Source: Pectinatus frisingensis
Lineage (GTDB): Bacteria > Bacillota > Negativicutes > Selenomonadales > Selenomonadaceae
NCBI RefSeq assembly: GCF_015732285.1
Contig: NZ_WIQU01000002.1
Location: 1 to 46,811 of the forward strand
DNA: 46,811 bases
Direction: 5' to 3'
Of this stretch, positions 894 through 6,551 are shown in pieces. The position numbers and the translations under genes are program-made. The stretch's first letter is position 1. Every line of letters begins with the position of its first letter. The notes beneath the pieces were generated by a model. That model worked only from the letters and a program-made list of their open reading frames with translations. It had not been told where the DNA came from and made no database searches.

Positions 894-3230
894 TTACTCT
901 GCTTCTCCGGTGCGATACATTTTTATTAGTTCCGGATTAGCCGTCATTTCCCAAATACCGCAAGGGCACACGCCAGCACAAATACCACAGCCAATACATT
1001 TATCAGGATCAGAGATATATTCTACTATTCCCATGCCATGGTCAATACGATCAATCGCCTTTTCGGGACAAGATTCAAGACAAGTCTTACAGTCACGACA
1101 GGTACCGCAGCTGACACAACGATTGACATCGCCAATCGGTTCAGGTAAATCACAGTGATGACACTTGGTAAAGTATTCTCTATCCAATGATTTTTCCGGT
1201 ACTTTTTGCTTTTCAGGAAAAGCCGGTACTGTTTTATCCATAACATAAGCATCGGCATAGTAGGCTGTCTTATTACCGGAGCCTATAGCATCAACCAAAC
1301 GTCCTGGTTTTATTACATCACCGGCAATAAATATACCTTCTAAAATGGAATTATCTGCCTGTGGTACAAGCCAGTCTCGGAATTTCTTAATATTTTCGTT
1401 CTGCGGTAAATAATCAAGAATAGGGGCTTCACCAATAGAAACAATTACCATATCGCCCTTTACAAAACGTCCCTTATTATCATAAATACCATCATCAGTT
1501 ATTTTTGTTGTCATGAACGGCCATACAAGTTTGCCGCCTAATTGTTCAATATATTCTATTTCATCTTGGAATGCCGCCGGCTTCTGCACATCAATGCAGG
1601 TAACTGTCTCAGCTCCCATATCATAGGCACCGCGAGCCGTATCCATACCGGAATTGCCACAGCCGATAACGATAACATTTTTCCCCACAGCCGGATGTTC
1701 TCCACGATTTACCGCTTTCAAGAAATCCAGTCCCATGGTCAATTTTTCAACACCTTCCCAAGGGAAAAACCTTGATTTATGTCCACCTGTAGCTAAAATT
1801 ACCGCATCATTTGTTTTTCTTAACTCAATGAATTTATCAGCGTCGACTTTACATCTGGGGACAAATTTGACACCAGCCGTTTCGATACGTTTGAGTTCAG
1901 CTTGCAGTAACTCATGCGGCAGGCGGGCGCGAGGAATCACTTGTTCCAACTTTCCGCCAATATCAGCATCATCGTAAACAGTTACCGCATGTCCTAATCT
2001 AATTAGCTGCCATGCGGCACTGAGTCCTGCCACACCACCGCCGATAACAGCTATCTTTTTCCCGGTTTTTTTCGTTGGCATATCTAATTCAGCATACACT
2101 GACTGAAAACCAAGTGGTCCAATCTGAACTGCCTGATCAATTTTTGCACGAGTACATGCATCCATACATGGATTCGGACATACCGATGCACATACAGACC
2201 CCGGAAAAGGTGTATATTCAAGCACCAGTTTAACAGCTTCTTCCTGTTTATCTTTACGCAGCATATTATAACGCAATTGTGTAGGAATATTTGCCGGACA
2301 AGCAAATTCACATGGTGCCGCATATTTGGCATTATTCCATTGCGGTACCCGCTGACGATATATTCCCTTTTCCACAAGATTCTTAACTGCGAAATCATCC
2401 ACCGCCACATCACTGAACAACCCGCCCTTTATCCATTCATTCAGGCGGAATGATTTCATATCGGTATGTTTTATATTTGTCTTTTGTTTTTCCTCAAAAC
2501 TTAATGGACGCAATTTATGCCATTGTTTCCAATCAGTAAGTTCTGTATGAAGATCTTCTTTTTCTATTGCCCGTAAAAATTCGTCCATACCACCTGACAA
2601 AAAAGCCTTATCATCATCATTAAGTTCTTCCAGTAATATATCCGCCGGATGATCATGCGAATGGCCGCGAAAATAAACGATACCCCCGACCATTCCGACA
2701 CAAGGTCGTTCCCCAAGTACAGAATCAAATTCTTCACTATCGATCCCACAAACCACAGCGCGGCCGCCACCCATAAATTCAAAAGAAAAACTGCCAACAT
2801 TTTTCAATATCCAAAGCTGCGGTTCTTCATAAAGCGGATCATGTTTCATCAAAGAACCTGTGCGAGTTCCGCCTCGCCCGCCGATATAAATTTTACCACC
2901 GGCTGAACAATGCCCTGCCGTATCACCGGCATCACCTTTTACCGTTATTTTACCGCCGGCATTAAGCCAGCCTACATCTGCTGAAACAGAACCATCAGCA
3001 ATTATTTCTGTATTGGCCAAACACATTGAACCCAAACGCTGTCCTGCATTAGCAACATGAAAATACAGCGTCTTCCCTTCAGGATGCCATAAAGGTCCGC
3101 CAATATCATGCTGACCGGAAGCCGCTATTTCAAAATTAGTTTCACCATTTGCCACTGCTTCACTGATAGCCAGCAGCAAATCCTGTGTGGACATACGATC
3201 ATGTCCCTTTATTGTATCTATAGTAAACAT
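894..3230 (-). CDS. Glutamate synthase GXGXG domain fused to FAD/Fe-S NAD(P)H reductase (GltD-like)
   Basis: This 778-residue protein joins two glutamate synthase modules. Residues about 40-195 carry the Gly-rich repeats of the GltB C-terminal GXGXG helix. Residues 305-360 hold the Cys-rich N-terminal motif of GltD-type reductases (C307, C311, C347, C351, C355, C359). FAD is bound at GGGVAG (397-402) and NAD(P)H at IGCGNSG (522-528). Two C-terminal ferredoxin-like clusters lie at 705-722 and 745-756 (CIGCGICAGVC). Known family role: moving electrons from NAD(P)H to the FMN synthase subunit for glutamate formation from 2-oxoglutarate and glutamine. It is the last of three leftward genes, 20 bases after the synthase gene, with a strong Shine-Dalgarno (AAGGAGG). 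A GXGXG domain on the reductase rather than on the synthase chain is the unusual point. The family is clear; the electron donor (NADH, NADPH or ferredoxin) is not. Confidence 0.88.
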   Translation of the reverse strand: MFTIDTIKGHDRMSTQDLLLAISEAVANGETNFEIAASGQHDIGGPLWHPEGKTLYFHVANAGQRLGSMCLANTEIIADGSVSADVGWLNAGGKITVKGDAGDTAGHCSAGGKIYIGGRGGTRTGSLMKHDPLYEEPQLWILKNVGSFSFEFMGGGRAVVCGIDSEEFDSVLGERPCVGMVGGIVYFRGHSHDHPADILLEELNDDDKAFLSGGMDEFLRAIEKEDLHTELTDWKQWHKLRPLSFEEKQKTNIKHTDMKSFRLNEWIKGGLFSDVAVDDFAVKNLVEKGIYRQRVPQWNNAKYAAPCEFACPANIPTQLRYNMLRKDKQEEAVKLVLEYTPFPGSVCASVCPNPCMDACTRAKIDQAVQIGPLGFQSVYAELDMPTKKTGKKIAVIGGGVAGLSAAWQLIRLGHAVTVYDDADIGGKLEQVIPRARLPHELLQAELKRIETAGVKFVPRCKVDADKFIELRKTNDAVILATGGHKSRFFPWEGVEKLTMGLDFLKAVNRGEHPAVGKNVIVIGCGNSGMDTARGAYDMGAETVTCIDVQKPAAFQDEIEYIEQLGGKLVWPFMTTKITDDGIYDNKGRFVKGDMVIVSIGEAPILDYLPQNENIKKFRDWLVPQADNSILEGIFIAGDVIKPGRLVDAIGSGNKTAYYADAYVMDKTVPAFPEKQKVPEKSLDREYFTKCHHCDLPEPIGDVNRCVSCGTCRDCKTCLESCPEKAIDRIDHGMGIVEYISDPDKCIGCGICAGVCPCGIWEMTANPELIKMYRTGEAE

Positions 3231-3250: not shown

Positions 3251-4882
3251 TCAGCATACGTATTGAATACCTAATTGTTCAGCAATCGCCTTGTCTGTTG
3301 AAACCAAGGCATCGCTGCGGCCTACAGGAAGTGAGCTGTTACCAATAGGAGCCATCAGCTTACGCAATTCCTTATCAAAAGTAAGCACATAATCAACAAT
3401 TTTTTGAGCACCGCGATCAATATCAAGCCGTTTTACCAGACGCGGGTCTTGTGTACAAATACCGGTTGGGCATTTACCGGTATTGCAGGCGTTGCAATGA
3501 CCTTCTTCATTACCTACACATCCTAGCAGCTGAATAAGCATTTTACCAACAAATACACCATTTGCTCCCAGACATATCATTTTAAAAGCATCGGCTGCAG
3601 CGTTACCGGTCATGCCCATACCACCGCCGCCATAAAGTGGAATTTGTCCCTGCAGGCCTTGTTTTACTGCGGCCAAATAGCAGTCACGTATTTTAGATAC
3701 AATTGGATGACCTGTATGATCTAAAGAAATTTCATTAGCAGCACCAGTACCGCCTTGTATCCCATCAATAAAAAATCCACCGCATATCTGATAAGGATCC
3801 CGTAACAAATTATTATAAACAGATACTGATGTAGCAGAAGCCGCACATTTTATAGCCACCGGCACTCTGAAACCAAAAGCGGCATTTAACGACAAATGCA
3901 TTTTTTGCACAGATTCTTCGATTGAATATAGTCCCTGATGATTTGGTGGAGAAGAAAGTGTTGCTTTTGGCACACCCCGTATTGCCTGTACATGTTCAGC
4001 GACTTTAGCCGCCTGTAAAAGCCCACCGTCACCGGGTTTTGCCCCTTGCCCAATTTTAATCAATACACCTGCCGGATCAACTTTCATCCGTGGCATTGCC
4101 TTTATAATTCTATTCCAGCCAAAATGACCTGATGCTATTTGCAAAATCATATACTTCAGCTGTTCTGATTCCAACAGCTTACTTGGCATACCGCCCTCAC
4201 CTGAACTCATACGTACCGGCAGTCCACACTTTTCATTCAAATAAGCTACTGCCATTGACACTGCTTCCCATGCCCGTGTAGATAATGCACCGATTGACAT
4301 ATCAGAAAAGATCAACGGATAAATCCACCGTACTGGGGGAGCCTTATGTGCCATAACCAATTTACCATCTTTTAAAACAAACGGTAATTTTTCAGCCGGC
4401 AATACCCGTCCAAATGGTGCGCGGATATCAAATGTATGTCTTATTGAATCAAGTGATGGATCTGTCATTTGGCTGATTCGTCCGACGATTATATGATCCA
4501 AGGTACGCTGTGCATTCAAGTTTGTCCGCCCGCCGCGCTTTATGGGTCCTGCATCACGTGACAATAAAGTCTGGCGATTATCACGGTTTCTCACAGGATG
4601 AATAGCATTATTAGGGCAGACTTTTTCACACATACCGCAGCCGACGCAGGCATTGGCGATAGATTTAACTTGTTTTATAACAGGAATAGTTCTATGTGTA
4701 CGCAATGGTGTCGGCTGAAAATCTTCTGAATAAGTCTTATCCACACGAACCACACCGGCTTCAATGGCCCCCAGTGTACATGTTGCTATACAGCTGCCAC
4801 ACATTGTACAACGTTCCGGCAAGTATTCTATATTCCATTTTAAATCGGCCTTACCAATATCCTGTGATTTTATTGCTTCCAT
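3251..4882 (-). CDS. Glutamate synthase central FMN/Fe-S domain protein
   Basis: A 543-residue stand-alone version of the FMN-binding synthase domain of GltB. The N-terminus adds two 4Fe-4S ferredoxin motifs (C25, C28, C31, C35 and C79, C82, C85, C89) not found in the classical large subunit. The TIM-barrel part shows family signatures GEGGMPSKL, KIGQGAKPGDGG and the FMN phosphate-binding YGGGGMGMTGN. A Cys cluster for the 3Fe-4S centre lies at about 455-476 (ending CPTGIC). It should condense ammonia, channelled from the amidotransferase subunit, with 2-oxoglutarate. The start ATG has a GGAGG site and lies 13 bases inside the upstream amidotransferase gene, indicating translational coupling. 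The N-terminal ferredoxin module resembles archaeal-type split glutamate synthases. Confidence 0.9.
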   Translation of the reverse strand: MEAIKSQDIGKADLKWNIEYLPERCTMCGSCIATCTLGAIEAGVVRVDKTYSEDFQPTPLRTHRTIPVIKQVKSIANACVGCGMCEKVCPNNAIHPVRNRDNRQTLLSRDAGPIKRGGRTNLNAQRTLDHIIVGRISQMTDPSLDSIRHTFDIRAPFGRVLPAEKLPFVLKDGKLVMAHKAPPVRWIYPLIFSDMSIGALSTRAWEAVSMAVAYLNEKCGLPVRMSSGEGGMPSKLLESEQLKYMILQIASGHFGWNRIIKAMPRMKVDPAGVLIKIGQGAKPGDGGLLQAAKVAEHVQAIRGVPKATLSSPPNHQGLYSIEESVQKMHLSLNAAFGFRVPVAIKCAASATSVSVYNNLLRDPYQICGGFFIDGIQGGTGAANEISLDHTGHPIVSKIRDCYLAAVKQGLQGQIPLYGGGGMGMTGNAAADAFKMICLGANGVFVGKMLIQLLGCVGNEEGHCNACNTGKCPTGICTQDPRLVKRLDIDRGAQKIVDYVLTFDKELRKLMAPIGNSSLPVGRSDALVSTDKAIAEQLGIQYVC

Positions 4883-5976
4883 CTTTGTACCTCCAAGTCA
4901 TTGTCGATAACCACGACCTCACGTTCATTGGGATAAATATCCTTTGTCATATCCCTCTCAGGCATTATTTCATTAAGGCCGCATACTTCTGAAGCAATAG
5001 CAACCGTATCTTCAGTCTGTCCCACTACTACCGGACGCAGTTTTTTGGAATCACAGCAAGTAATCATTCTACCATCAGGTAAACTGGCAATAATCGTATT
5101 AGGTCCATTTATTTCCAAATTAGCTAATGATTGGCGAATTGCCTTCAAAACTTCCTTGTCCTCACGCTGTTCAATTTCTCCAAACGGCAGTGGTGTTATC
5201 ACATGTTTATAATATTTAATCGGCCACTTCAATTCATGCAGAACATAATGCAATGTATAAAGAAAATTTTGCGAATCAGATTCAAAACCTACATATCCTC
5301 TATGTAAAGACTTTTGAAATTCTTTATTTTTTGTATAAAAGGTATTTTCACCGTTGGCACAAAGTGTATATCCCTGCAAAAAAAATGGATGAGCCGCATA
5401 GCGGACTATATCATAGTTAGTATTTTGCCGGCATTGCACTACTATACTTTTAGCCATGAGACAGCCATTATCGTCCCAAAGTCTGAAATATGTCGCAATA
5501 TCACGCGGATCGCCTATTTCCTTAAGTGTCAGCACATCCGGCCAAAATGAATAAACGTAACCTTCATCGGCATCTTCCAATATTTTTCGCAATTTAAGAC
5601 GAATATCCAGTAATAATTCCTCTTTTTCTGCCATTGGTTTATCGCGATAATATTCCGGGTAATCATAATTACGAAATATATAATATGGCATTGCCTTTAT
5701 ATCAAGACCCGGCTGATTATTAGGCACAGGAATCCATTCCGCCAATTGTTCGAAATTATGACTGTCCATAAAATCTTCAACCATCTGTGCCCCACGTTGT
5801 GTGCAGGCCAATGATAATAACGGTTTATCCTTATACGGTGTAAAAATACCGTACAGGTCCTGCATGACCATGGCAAATCCCGAATTATCATGCCCCTCCT
5901 GCTGCGGCAACATAAGATATAACGCCTTTGACGGGCTAAAAGCTACTTTACTTTTTATTGAACCAATTCTACACAT
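4870..5976 (-). CDS. Glutamate synthase class-II glutamine amidotransferase subunit
   Basis: This 368-residue protein is the stand-alone Ntn-type glutaminase domain of a split glutamate synthase. It begins Met-Cys-Arg-Ile-Gly, so Cys2 becomes the N-terminal nucleophile after Met removal; QQEGHDNSGF further in matches the class-II amidotransferase core. The start is fixed by that catalytic Cys: a TTG five codons upstream lies inside the GGGGG Shine-Dalgarno and would bury the nucleophile. It is first in the three-gene operon and overlaps the synthase gene by 13 bases. A promoter at 6192-6220 and a terminator at 6035-6070 lie in its long leader, implying regulated read-through. Role: hydrolyse glutamine and supply ammonia to the FMN subunit. 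Confidence 0.87.
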   Translation of the reverse strand: MCRIGSIKSKVAFSPSKALYLMLPQQEGHDNSGFAMVMQDLYGIFTPYKDKPLLSLACTQRGAQMVEDFMDSHNFEQLAEWIPVPNNQPGLDIKAMPYYIFRNYDYPEYYRDKPMAEKEELLLDIRLKLRKILEDADEGYVYSFWPDVLTLKEIGDPRDIATYFRLWDDNGCLMAKSIVVQCRQNTNYDIVRYAAHPFFLQGYTLCANGENTFYTKNKEFQKSLHRGYVGFESDSQNFLYTLHYVLHELKWPIKYYKHVITPLPFGEIEQREDKEVLKAIRQSLANLEINGPNTIIASLPDGRMITCCDSKKLRPVVVGQTEDTVAIASEVCGLNEIMPERDMTKDIYPNEREVVVIDNDLEVQRWKQ

Positions 5977-6034
5977 ATAGTCTGCCCCCAATAATACACA
6001 ATATCAGCACAGCAAAAACATTAATTTATAGACT

Positions 6035-6070
6035 AAAAAATCATATATTGGTTTGCTACCAATATATGAT
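6035..6070 (-). terminator. Leader terminator (candidate attenuator) of the glutamate synthase operon
   Basis: On the minus strand a perfect 13-bp stem (arms 6058-6070 and 6040-6052, loop of 5) is followed directly by a run of six T. It sits between the promoter at 6192-6220 and the amidotransferase start at 5976, so operon transcripts from that promoter must read through it. Two smaller hairpins precede it: an AGTGAT/ATCACT pairing and CAGCA-TTGT-TGCTG. I could not match the leader to a known riboswitch or T-box. Confidence 0.75.
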
Positions 6071-6191
6071 GCTCCAGCAACAATGCTGATTAATCTTACA
6101 TAAGTGATAGTTCGCAATTCCACCATCACTAAACATCTATGACGATATAATTACATACAATAACTGCAGTCAAGAAATAGATGCATATATA

Positions 6192-6220
6192 ATTATATAA
6201 ATGTATTCTTATACTGTCAA
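6192..6220 (-). promoter_or_regulatory. Consensus sigma-70-type promoter of the glutamate synthase operon
   Basis: Minus-strand TTGACA (6215-6220), a 17-base spacer and TATAAT (6192-6197) match both consensus hexamers exactly. Start of transcription is predicted near 6185, giving a leader of about 209 bases before the amidotransferase ATG. Confidence 0.8.
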
Positions 6221-6254
6221 CAAAAATTTCTTTTTTAAATTAGAAAAATATTGT

Positions 6255-6293
6255 ATTCTTTGTAAAGAATAACTAATAATTGATTCTTTACAA
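6255..6293. promoter_or_regulatory. Candidate operator: repeated ATTCTTT half-sites
   Basis: A perfect 11-bp inverted repeat TTGTAAAGAAT-N12-ATTCTTTACAA (6260-6270 and 6283-6293) overlaps a second palindrome ATTCTTT-GT-AAAGAAT (6255-6270). It begins 35 bases upstream of the -35 box of the glutamate synthase promoter, a normal place for an activator. The regulator is unknown. Confidence 0.5.
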
Positions 6294-6551
6294 TAGATTT
6301 ATCATTGCATAATATTACTTAAGTGTATTTTTATTCATATTAAAAACAGATTATCATTTACTATTTATGTTGTACATTTGTAATCATAATAGCAATTTAT
6401 AGGGAACACTTATATCATTGTTTTTAAGTATGTATTGAATTGTATTGCAGTATACAAAATACTACTACCTTTACAAGATATACAATTTCGCTGCAAATAA
6501 ATTTTCTTTTTTTCCGGTTATTATTACTTTTTGAGCTTGAAAATTTTATAA
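6294..6551. other. AT-rich intergenic DNA
   Basis: I see no gene, RNA or clear promoter here. It is the remainder of the 621-base gap between the glutamate synthase operon and the terminator of the M23 peptidase gene. Confidence 0.4.

Follow-up and report, generated by a model that had tools for sequence, protein, structure and literature searches.

The window analysed here is a stretch of 46,811 nucleotides that constitutes one whole contig (C49) of a 2.9-Mb Pectinatus genome (G000). It contains three genes of a glutamate synthase (glt) operon on the minus strand, which overlap or are closely spaced and are preceded by a promoter and a long leader (Table 1). The closest named glt proteins are those of Pectinatus cerevisiiphilus (96% identity) and P. 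brassicae (93%). The first gene is without a Pfam match and shows weak similarity to PurF in a comparison with the PDB (E 0.57); its probable assignment as the amidotransferase subunit comes from the MCRIG start and the place in the operon. For comparison we used a set of five Pectinatus genomes, G000 and four congeneric ones, with glt leaders labelled L002 to L006; these five leaders represent one lineage and are counted as one event.

Table 1. Coordinates of genes, leader elements and upstream sites at the glt locus of the window
Feature	Position	Strand	Remarks
Glutamate synthase subunit with GXGXG, pyridine-nucleotide oxidoreductase and Fer4 domains	894..3230	-	PF01493, PF07992, Fer4
Glutamate synthase, FMN-domain subunit with Fer4 domains	3251..4882	-	PF01645, E 1.4e-62
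First gene, 368 aa, MCRIG N-terminus	4870..5976	-	ATG at 5976; probable glutamine amidotransferase subunit of glutamate synthase
Possible basal stem 6096-6090/6036-6030 around hexaloop hairpin and terminator	6030..6096	-	RNAalifold consensus, 5 leaders
Intrinsic terminator AUCAUAUAUUGG-UAGCAAA-CCAAUAUAUGAU and U-run	6034..6070	-	3 nt after hexaloop hairpin
ANTAR-type hexaloop hairpin UCAGC-AUUGUU-GCUGG	6074..6089	-	5 pairs, C-G closing pair, loop 6084-6079
Promoter-proximal leader, possible hairpin 6184-6177/6140-6133	6133..6184	-	consensus fold of 5 leaders
Sigma-70 promoter TTGACA-N17-TATAAT	6192..6220	-	12/12 match; predicted start near 6185; kept in 5/5 Pectinatus
Block AAAGAATACAATATTTT just upstream of -35	6245..6261	-	largely conserved, alignment of 5 Pectinatus upstream regions
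11-bp inverted repeat	6260..6293	.	exact here, absent in 4 other Pectinatus
Palindrome TTGTAT-N6-ATACAA	6440..6457	.	candidate site of DNA-binding regulator

A first-pass annotation of this DNA had proposed a perfect promoter and a leader of about 209 nt. The promoter matches the consensus at every position, and the distance from the predicted start to the ATG agrees with that length. The same annotation had placed a 13-bp terminator with a T6 tract ahead of the first gene, and two smaller hairpins ahead of the terminator. The stem of the terminator (6070-6040) indeed comprises 13 pairs, three of them G-C, and is followed by T5, which extends to T6 only if the last paired T is counted. Both smaller hairpins are present as well, that at 6088-6075 being the important one. 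Between 5700 and 6650 there are two terminator-like sites, compared with 0.3 in shuffled sequences; the second of them is the hexaloop hairpin read on the opposite strand. Both arms of the terminator stem, the U-run and the subsequent AGUCU are identical in all five Pectinatus leaders, which as a whole have pairwise identities of 66-87% and a variable middle part with an indel. Lack of conservation in relatives, or a promoter below the terminator, had been named as observations that would count against leader control. Hairpin and terminator are kept in the five Pectinatus genomes, though with little covariation, and the sigma-70 scan of the minus strand gave no match between the terminator and the start codon. 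Comparison of the genomes establishes, at the level of sequence, the promoter, the hairpin, the conservation of its loop bases A1 and G4 and of its C-G closing pair, the terminator and the adjacency of hairpin and terminator, and the existence of an element in the glt leader is firm.

The hairpin in front of the terminator has a six-base loop with A at the first and G at the fourth position (A1 and G4). Both residues are kept in the five Pectinatus loops (AUUGUU, ACUGUU, AUUGUU, AUCGAU and AAUGUU), where positions 2, 3 and 5 vary and position 6 is always U. Since A1 can pair with U6 in all five loops, and the loop has four bases in the consensus fold, conservation of A1 within the genus is weak evidence. 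A C-G-closed ANNGNN hairpin with at least five pairs, at most 5 nt from the terminator, did not occur in any of 20,000 dinucleotide shuffles of the leader, and with the closing pair and the position within the leader left free, an ANNGNN hairpin occurred in 11 of 5,000. The gap between hairpin and terminator is +3, +3, +2, +2 and +3 nt in L002 to L006, respectively.

ANTAR targets are recognised by a six-base loop that carries A1 and G4 (PMC3369931). For EutV, both bases are reported to be needed, and the sequence of the two closing pairs, of which C28-G35 borders the loop, is also of importance (PMC3369931). The glt hairpin resembles the targets of EutV (eut, Enterococcus faecalis), NasR (nasF) and AmiR (amiE) in its short stem, its six-base loop and A1/G4, in its location directly before or within an intrinsic terminator of a nitrogen-gene leader, and in the presence of an ANTAR response regulator in the genome; the C-G closing pair is common to the Pectinatus hairpin and eutP P1. 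However, the eut, nasF and amiE targets are described as dual hexaloops of which the second overlaps the terminator, whereas the Pectinatus glt leader has one, adjoining the terminator without overlap. Antitermination by EutV is reported to need two hexaloops (PMC3369931, PMC8934654), and actinobacterial ANTAR targets are also dual hexaloops, with linkers of 2-25 nt (PMC8164766). All five Pectinatus glt leaders contain an A1/G4 hexaloop on a stem of at least three pairs. In the window leader no second A1/G4 hexaloop lies upstream at a short linker distance, no second hexaloop overlapping the terminator is visible by eye, and the hairpin itself, at a gap of +3, does not overlap it. As judged from its sequence, the glt element is by strict definition not a dual-hexaloop ANTAR RNA; it would act like one and, in sequence and fold and with 7 of 11 regulator contact residues kept, fits the minimum proposed in PMC8934654, a single A1/G4 hexaloop to which an ANTAR dimer would bind. 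We consider it highly probable, from these features, that the glt hairpin is an ANTAR target. Such targets have been reported ahead of genes for glutamate synthase, glutamine synthase and ammonium transporters elsewhere in bacteria (PMC3369931). Among these are predicted ANTAR RNAs ahead of glutamate synthase genes in Desulfotomaculum reducens; they were found with a dual-hairpin model, and their likeness to the Pectinatus element is one of gene function (PMC3369931).

An ANTAR domain (PF03861) is present above the cut-off in 54 of 60 genomes. G000, one of the 54, has a single match (E 1.9e-19), in a receiver-ANTAR protein of 194 aa (PF00072 and PF03861) encoded on contig C70; the presence of the regulator is thus established by comparison as well. 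Directly upstream lies a gene for a kinase with PdtaS GAF (PF12282), HisKA_2 (PF07568) and HATPase domains, so that G000 has the PdtaS-PdtaR arrangement of a PdtaS GAF and HisKA_2 kinase beside a receiver-ANTAR regulator. The best structural match of the regulator is likewise Rv1626 of that system (E 4.2e-55), and EutV (6wsh/6ww6) matches at E 1.6e-43. Unlike in PdtaS-PdtaR, the predicted targets in Pectinatus are nitrogen genes. Seven of the eleven RNA-contacting or plugging residues of EutV are kept (Arg142, Lys143, Lys149, Glu160, Tyr164, Met172 and Arg175) and four are changed (Lys147 to Arg, Arg168 to Gln, Asn173 to Ala and Arg177 to Thr); residue numbers in the aligned EutV chain exceed those of PMC8934654 by 2, a shift that fits all eleven residue types given there. 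The regulator gene of Pectinatus is far from glt. An ANTAR domain is encoded within about 0.7 kb of glt in five of 50 glt-bearing genomes, two of the 50 being weak matches with 26% identity; it is on the same strand in G005, G030, G031 and G034 and divergent in G029.

Hexaloop hairpins were also found at the terminators of other nitrogen genes. All hexaloop hairpins at terminators, whatever their loop type, were tallied to provide an internal control; the sequences are related, so these counts are not independent events. At the 248 distinct terminators in the loci scanned there were 20 flanking hexaloop hairpins, 11 of them A1/G4 and 9 distributed over the 15 other combinations together. The 67 upstream regions of amt (from 69 amt matches in 49 genomes, with two contig-end fragments excluded) contain 77 terminators and 36 hexaloop hairpins that overlap or adjoin one, of which 33 are A1/G4, two GG and one CG. 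For glt, the 107 upstream regions (the distinct ones among 130 loci, with 91 terminators) hold 15 hexaloop hairpins at terminators, ten of them A1/G4. A looser test for A1/G4 located units of hexaloop hairpin and terminator in 48 of the 67 amt regions and 11 of the 107 glt regions; the amt units come from 40 of 49 genomes and from 34 of 42 genera, and two of the glt units (L016 and L030) are doubtful; no unit was found by this test in the other 96 glt regions. Two further glt units from other genera, missed by the scan, were found by hand (L058 and L068, the latter with an interrupted U-run). Every one of the 69 units has C-G as the pair next to the loop; the scan required two G-C or C-G pairs in the stem, with neither their place nor their direction as a criterion.

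At glnA, a hexaloop hairpin and a terminator have bases in common in nine of ten loci scanned from the start codon, with A1/G4 in seven and GG in two. The glnA units of G000, on contig C19, and of G004 both read GGC-AAUGGA-GCC, the loop is AAUGGG in G001 and AAUGGC in G002, and a fifth Pectinatus locus (L169), for which the start codon was misplaced in the scan, has GGC-AAUGGU-GCC by eye. Hairpin and terminator overlap by 3 to 9 nt in the glnA units and by 3 to 13 nt in the amt units. The 3' arm of the amt hairpin belongs to the terminator (gap -3 to -13), so that hairpin and terminator exclude each other. For glt, Propionispira and two Megamonas-labelled genomes have gaps of +3, -1 and +1. 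In G000 itself, the amt leader (C60:162673) contains AGGC-AACGCA-GCCU inside a strong terminator, and AGGC-AACGAA-GCCU followed by a terminator is found in the leader (C48:201205) of a gene assigned, from its sequence, to the DASS-type anion transporters. Two complete hexaloop-terminator units stand in tandem in ten amt regions. Among the nine amt-bearing genomes without a unit by the scan, all except G015 have an ANTAR domain above the cut-off, and two, G018 and G026, have A1/G4 hairpins by eye. An ANTAR domain was not found in G054, an 87%-complete genome, despite its A1/G4 amt units.

We considered whether a second hexaloop (P1 or P2, stems of at least three pairs) is hidden upstream of the units, and rejected this, as A1/G4 is not enriched there. 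Within 25 nt upstream, an A1/G4 hairpin with at least three pairs and at least one GC pair is present in 2 of 67 glt and amt units, compared with 0-8 units for each of the other loop types; with two GC pairs, none of the 67 has one. A promoter-like site lies within 90 nt in 37 of 58 amt units, and in 20 of these 37 the distance from the -10 to the start of the hexaloop core is 13-30 nt, so that a first hairpin would hardly fit in between. Pairing holds for 94.1% of the stem cells in the unit alignment (shuffle mean 75.1%, slid controls 25.5-52.7%), and in 46 cells both sides have changed (shuffle mean 15.2); this covariation is weak evidence, because a stem of at least three pairs was the entry condition for the alignment. 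Double-change pairs (3, shuffled 2.9) and further pair types (8, shuffled 7.8) are not in excess over shuffles in that alignment. A loose GC-stem hexaloop pattern yields 36 matches in the whole genome and 41 in the reversed control, so that the degenerate pattern alone is not informative; of nine matches viewed in context, two are at terminators, those of the amt and DASS-transporter leaders.

We propose that the glt leader is an ANTAR-responsive attenuator, and from the sequence comparisons we hold this to be very likely. As an ANTAR-type hairpin adjoins the terminator, the cell can probably choose read-through into the glt genes. Transcription from the promoter (6220-6192) would yield the ANNGNN hexaloop hairpin (6088-6075) and, three bases on, the intrinsic terminator, and as long as a signal, presumably related to nitrogen, is absent, most polymerases would halt at about 6035. 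The PdtaS-type kinase would phosphorylate the ANTAR response regulator encoded on contig C70, a dimer of which would bind the hairpin through A1 and G4 of the loop and the C-G closing pair on its emergence from the polymerase. The bound dimer would stop the zipping of the adjoining terminator, and the glutamate synthase operon would be transcribed. The usual mutual exclusion is missing in the glt leader because hairpin and terminator share no bases; we infer that the bound dimer would stand in the way of the terminator base, and that a single adjoining hairpin could in this manner keep the polymerase from stopping. Further targets of the same regulator would be the leaders of amt, glnA and the DASS transporter in G000, in which the hairpin shares bases with the terminator.

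Whether one adjoining hexaloop suffices in the cell appears to us evenly balanced. We speculate, with no more confidence than doubt, that one-hexaloop antitermination operates in the Negativicutes: the amt and glnA hexaloop would be the antitermination hairpin, the glt-bound dimer would form a roadblock at the mouth of the RNA exit channel with no swap of base pairs, the two-hairpin rule of EutV would be broken, and a PdtaS-PdtaR pair would regulate ammonium uptake, glutamine synthetase and glutamate synthase in this class. The EutV structure paper asks why two hexaloops are needed and how far single ones work (PMC8934654), a question on which dozens of natural one-hexaloop leaders at terminators, in 48 of the 67 amt regions, bear. 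These leaders are ready test cases, with a predicted regulon of glt, amt, glnA and the DASS transporter, and point to a possible role for a PdtaS-PdtaR pair. Among the literature matches listed, none names an ANTAR RNA of the Negativicutes in its title or at the start of its abstract, and nothing relevant to nitrogen control in Pectinatus was among them; the names Selenomonas and Veillonella are absent from the main text of PMC3369931, the hit tables of which could hold such RNAs.

Upstream of the promoter, the 11-bp inverted repeat TTGTAAAGAAT-N12-ATTCTTTACAA had been suggested as an activator site. The repeat is exact in the window (6260-6270/6283-6293) but is missing in the other four Pectinatus genomes, and the five-genome alignment rules it out as a conserved activator site. 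The palindrome about 220 bp upstream of the -35 is the sole exact copy of TTGTAT-N6-ATACAA in the 2.9-Mb genome, and its core, TGTAT-N6-ATACA, is exact in all five Pectinatus glt upstream regions. Of the 107 glt upstream regions, 64 have the core with at most one mismatch and 21 have it exactly, compared with 7.2 and 0.4 expected from shuffles; among 14 amt regions examined, two have it, neither from Pectinatus. The 5-6-5 symmetry of the palindrome resembles what we take to be that of CRP/FNR-family sites. The first-pass annotation had raised the possibility of dual control of nitrogen assimilation by an unknown RNA element. The dual part stands, in that leader RNA control and a separate DNA-level control are both backed by conservation, but the element is not wholly unknown, as it has the ANTAR hexaloop signature and a likely protein partner in the genome.

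Control of the operon might reside mainly in initiation at this palindrome, with a minor role for the leader, which would be compatible with ANTAR-responsive attenuation. That the palindrome has no second copy in the genome and shows conservation at the family level favours such control; its distance from the -35 and the conserved hairpin and terminator, which would be left unexplained, make this a rather unlikely account. We regard as improbable that a constitutive or weak terminator merely tunes expression and that the hexaloop hairpin is incidental. At a gap of 2-3 nt the hairpin itself does not compete with the terminator, and many relatives have short glt leaders in which no terminator is seen by eye, as expected under that view. 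The near-absence of such hairpins from shuffled leaders is difficult to reconcile with it, as are the recurrence of A1/G4 and the C-G closing pair at terminators of amt, glnA and other glt operons and the position of the terminator between the operon's own promoter and start codon. It is very improbable that a short translated frame controls termination by ribosome stalling, as in leader-peptide attenuation: short ATG or GTG frames can be drawn by eye in several leaders, but no frame is kept by eye, with a one-base gap inside the frame in L005 and an early stop in the ATG frame of L003.

The remainder of the leader (about 6185-6090) might instead form an aptamer that senses a metabolite or an RNA and governs the terminator, with the hexaloop hairpin as part of its fold. 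Conserved blocks are found near the 5' end of the Pectinatus leaders, and the consensus fold has a basal stem around hairpin and terminator, which by eye is complete in L002-L004 and partial in L005 and L006 and which could form only after read-through. A motif, ACAAATGT/ACATTTGT, occurs in 32 of 90 glt 5' regions (1.0 expected), and some class-level relatives have a ykkC-type riboswitch at the same place. The motif is present in short leaders too, however; the middle of the leader is variable with an indel, and the pairing of the promoter-proximal hairpin (6184-6177/6140-6133) is broken by eye in two of the five species (L005 and L006). In the amt leaders of the same genomes there is little besides the hexaloop between promoter and terminator. 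A long-range pairing of the leader 5' end (UGCRUC) with the junction GAYGCA was noted by eye, but five sequences vary too little to claim it. No Rfam family matches the leader, in line with the earlier view that no T-box element and no FMN, glycine or glutamine riboswitch signature is recognisable in it: at gathering level the sole match in the window is a tRNA at 34.7 kb, and permissive scanning of 5900-6500 (E up to 5) gave two chance-level matches (E 1.8 and 1.7). A T-box was matched in neither scan, and with only the tRNA and chance-level matches the Rfam riboswitch and sRNA families were rejected for the glt leader. An aptamer of this kind is unlikely in our estimation, and we prefer ANTAR-responsive attenuation.

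The ykkC-type element mentioned above relates to ykkC subtype 2a, a ppGpp riboswitch found ahead of glutamate synthases (PMC5912903). RF00442 has no match in the window or the other Pectinatus leaders, and the core CUAGGGUUCCG is absent from the glt region of the window. The core CTAGGGTTCCG is found in 10 of the 107 glt regions (L031, L057, L059, L061-L063, L065, L066, L126 and L146). Eight such loci, seven with the core, gave no RF00442 match when scanned at gathering level; in a permissive scan L061 scored 59.1 bits, below the cut-off of 63. Many Selenomonas glt leaders are short, with no terminator visible by eye. With ykkC-type, short and hexaloop leaders at glt, one operon has been given different leaders within one bacterial class.

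The place occupied by the hexaloop and terminator in the glutamate synthase (glt) leaders of Pectinatus is taken, in the glt leaders of some relatives, by an element with the core CTAGGGTTCCG. Judged from its sequence, this element is probably a ykkC-superclass riboswitch of the ppGpp type. The core is shared by the leader of locus L061 with those of L031, L057, L059, L062, L063, L065, L066, L126 and L146; in a permissive scan of L061, the sole leader with this core so scanned, the score fell slightly below the Rfam cut-off.

Single-hexaloop units, as found in glt and ammonium transporter (amt) leaders, are also present in glutamine synthetase (glnA) leaders (L165-L174), where the terminator hairpin is unusually long (~37-74 nt). 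In ten amt upstream regions the units occur in tandem, two per region and each with its own terminator. A further predicted unit precedes a gene divergently oriented to another; we take these to encode a DASS-type anion transporter and a panC-like protein, respectively.

Coordinates of features at glt and other loci (G000, the P. frisingensis genome; C48, a contig; L numbers, loci)
Feature	Position	Remarks
Palindrome TGTAT-N6-ATACA	window 6440-6457	also in 64/107 glt upstream regions (at most one mismatch)
ykkC-superclass riboswitch candidate, glt leader	L061:1229-1331	core CTAGGGTTCCG
Predicted single-hexaloop attenuator, leader of presumed DASS-type transporter gene	G000:C48:201205-201218 (L197)	
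Two hexaloop-terminator units, amt upstream regions		L213, L217, L221, L228, L229, L230, L237, L238, L240, L251

Across the Selenomonadaceae, the palindrome is kept upstream of glt. Copies with one mismatch lie close to two amt promoters (L150, L154). Within the first 70 nt past the -10 element of the glt promoters, ACAAATGT or ACATTTGT was found in 32 of 90 leaders, short ones included, versus 1.0 expected from shuffles.

Terminator-like hairpins with the common internal sequence GCCATGCGA...AGCAAGG were seen in three glt leaders (L011, L014, L018) from three families. They have no credible Rfam match (one chance match, E 0.32, lies elsewhere in L014), and possibly represent additional structured RNA.

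The first gene of the operon (window 4870-5976, minus strand) has no counterpart in Pfam, even when E values up to 10 are allowed; matches to it occur in 50 genomes, and in 48 of these the identity is 74-96%. In four genomes (L049, L050, L052, L053) the ANTAR gene is separated from gltA by a small gene, whose product, read by eye, starts with MMALNFR.
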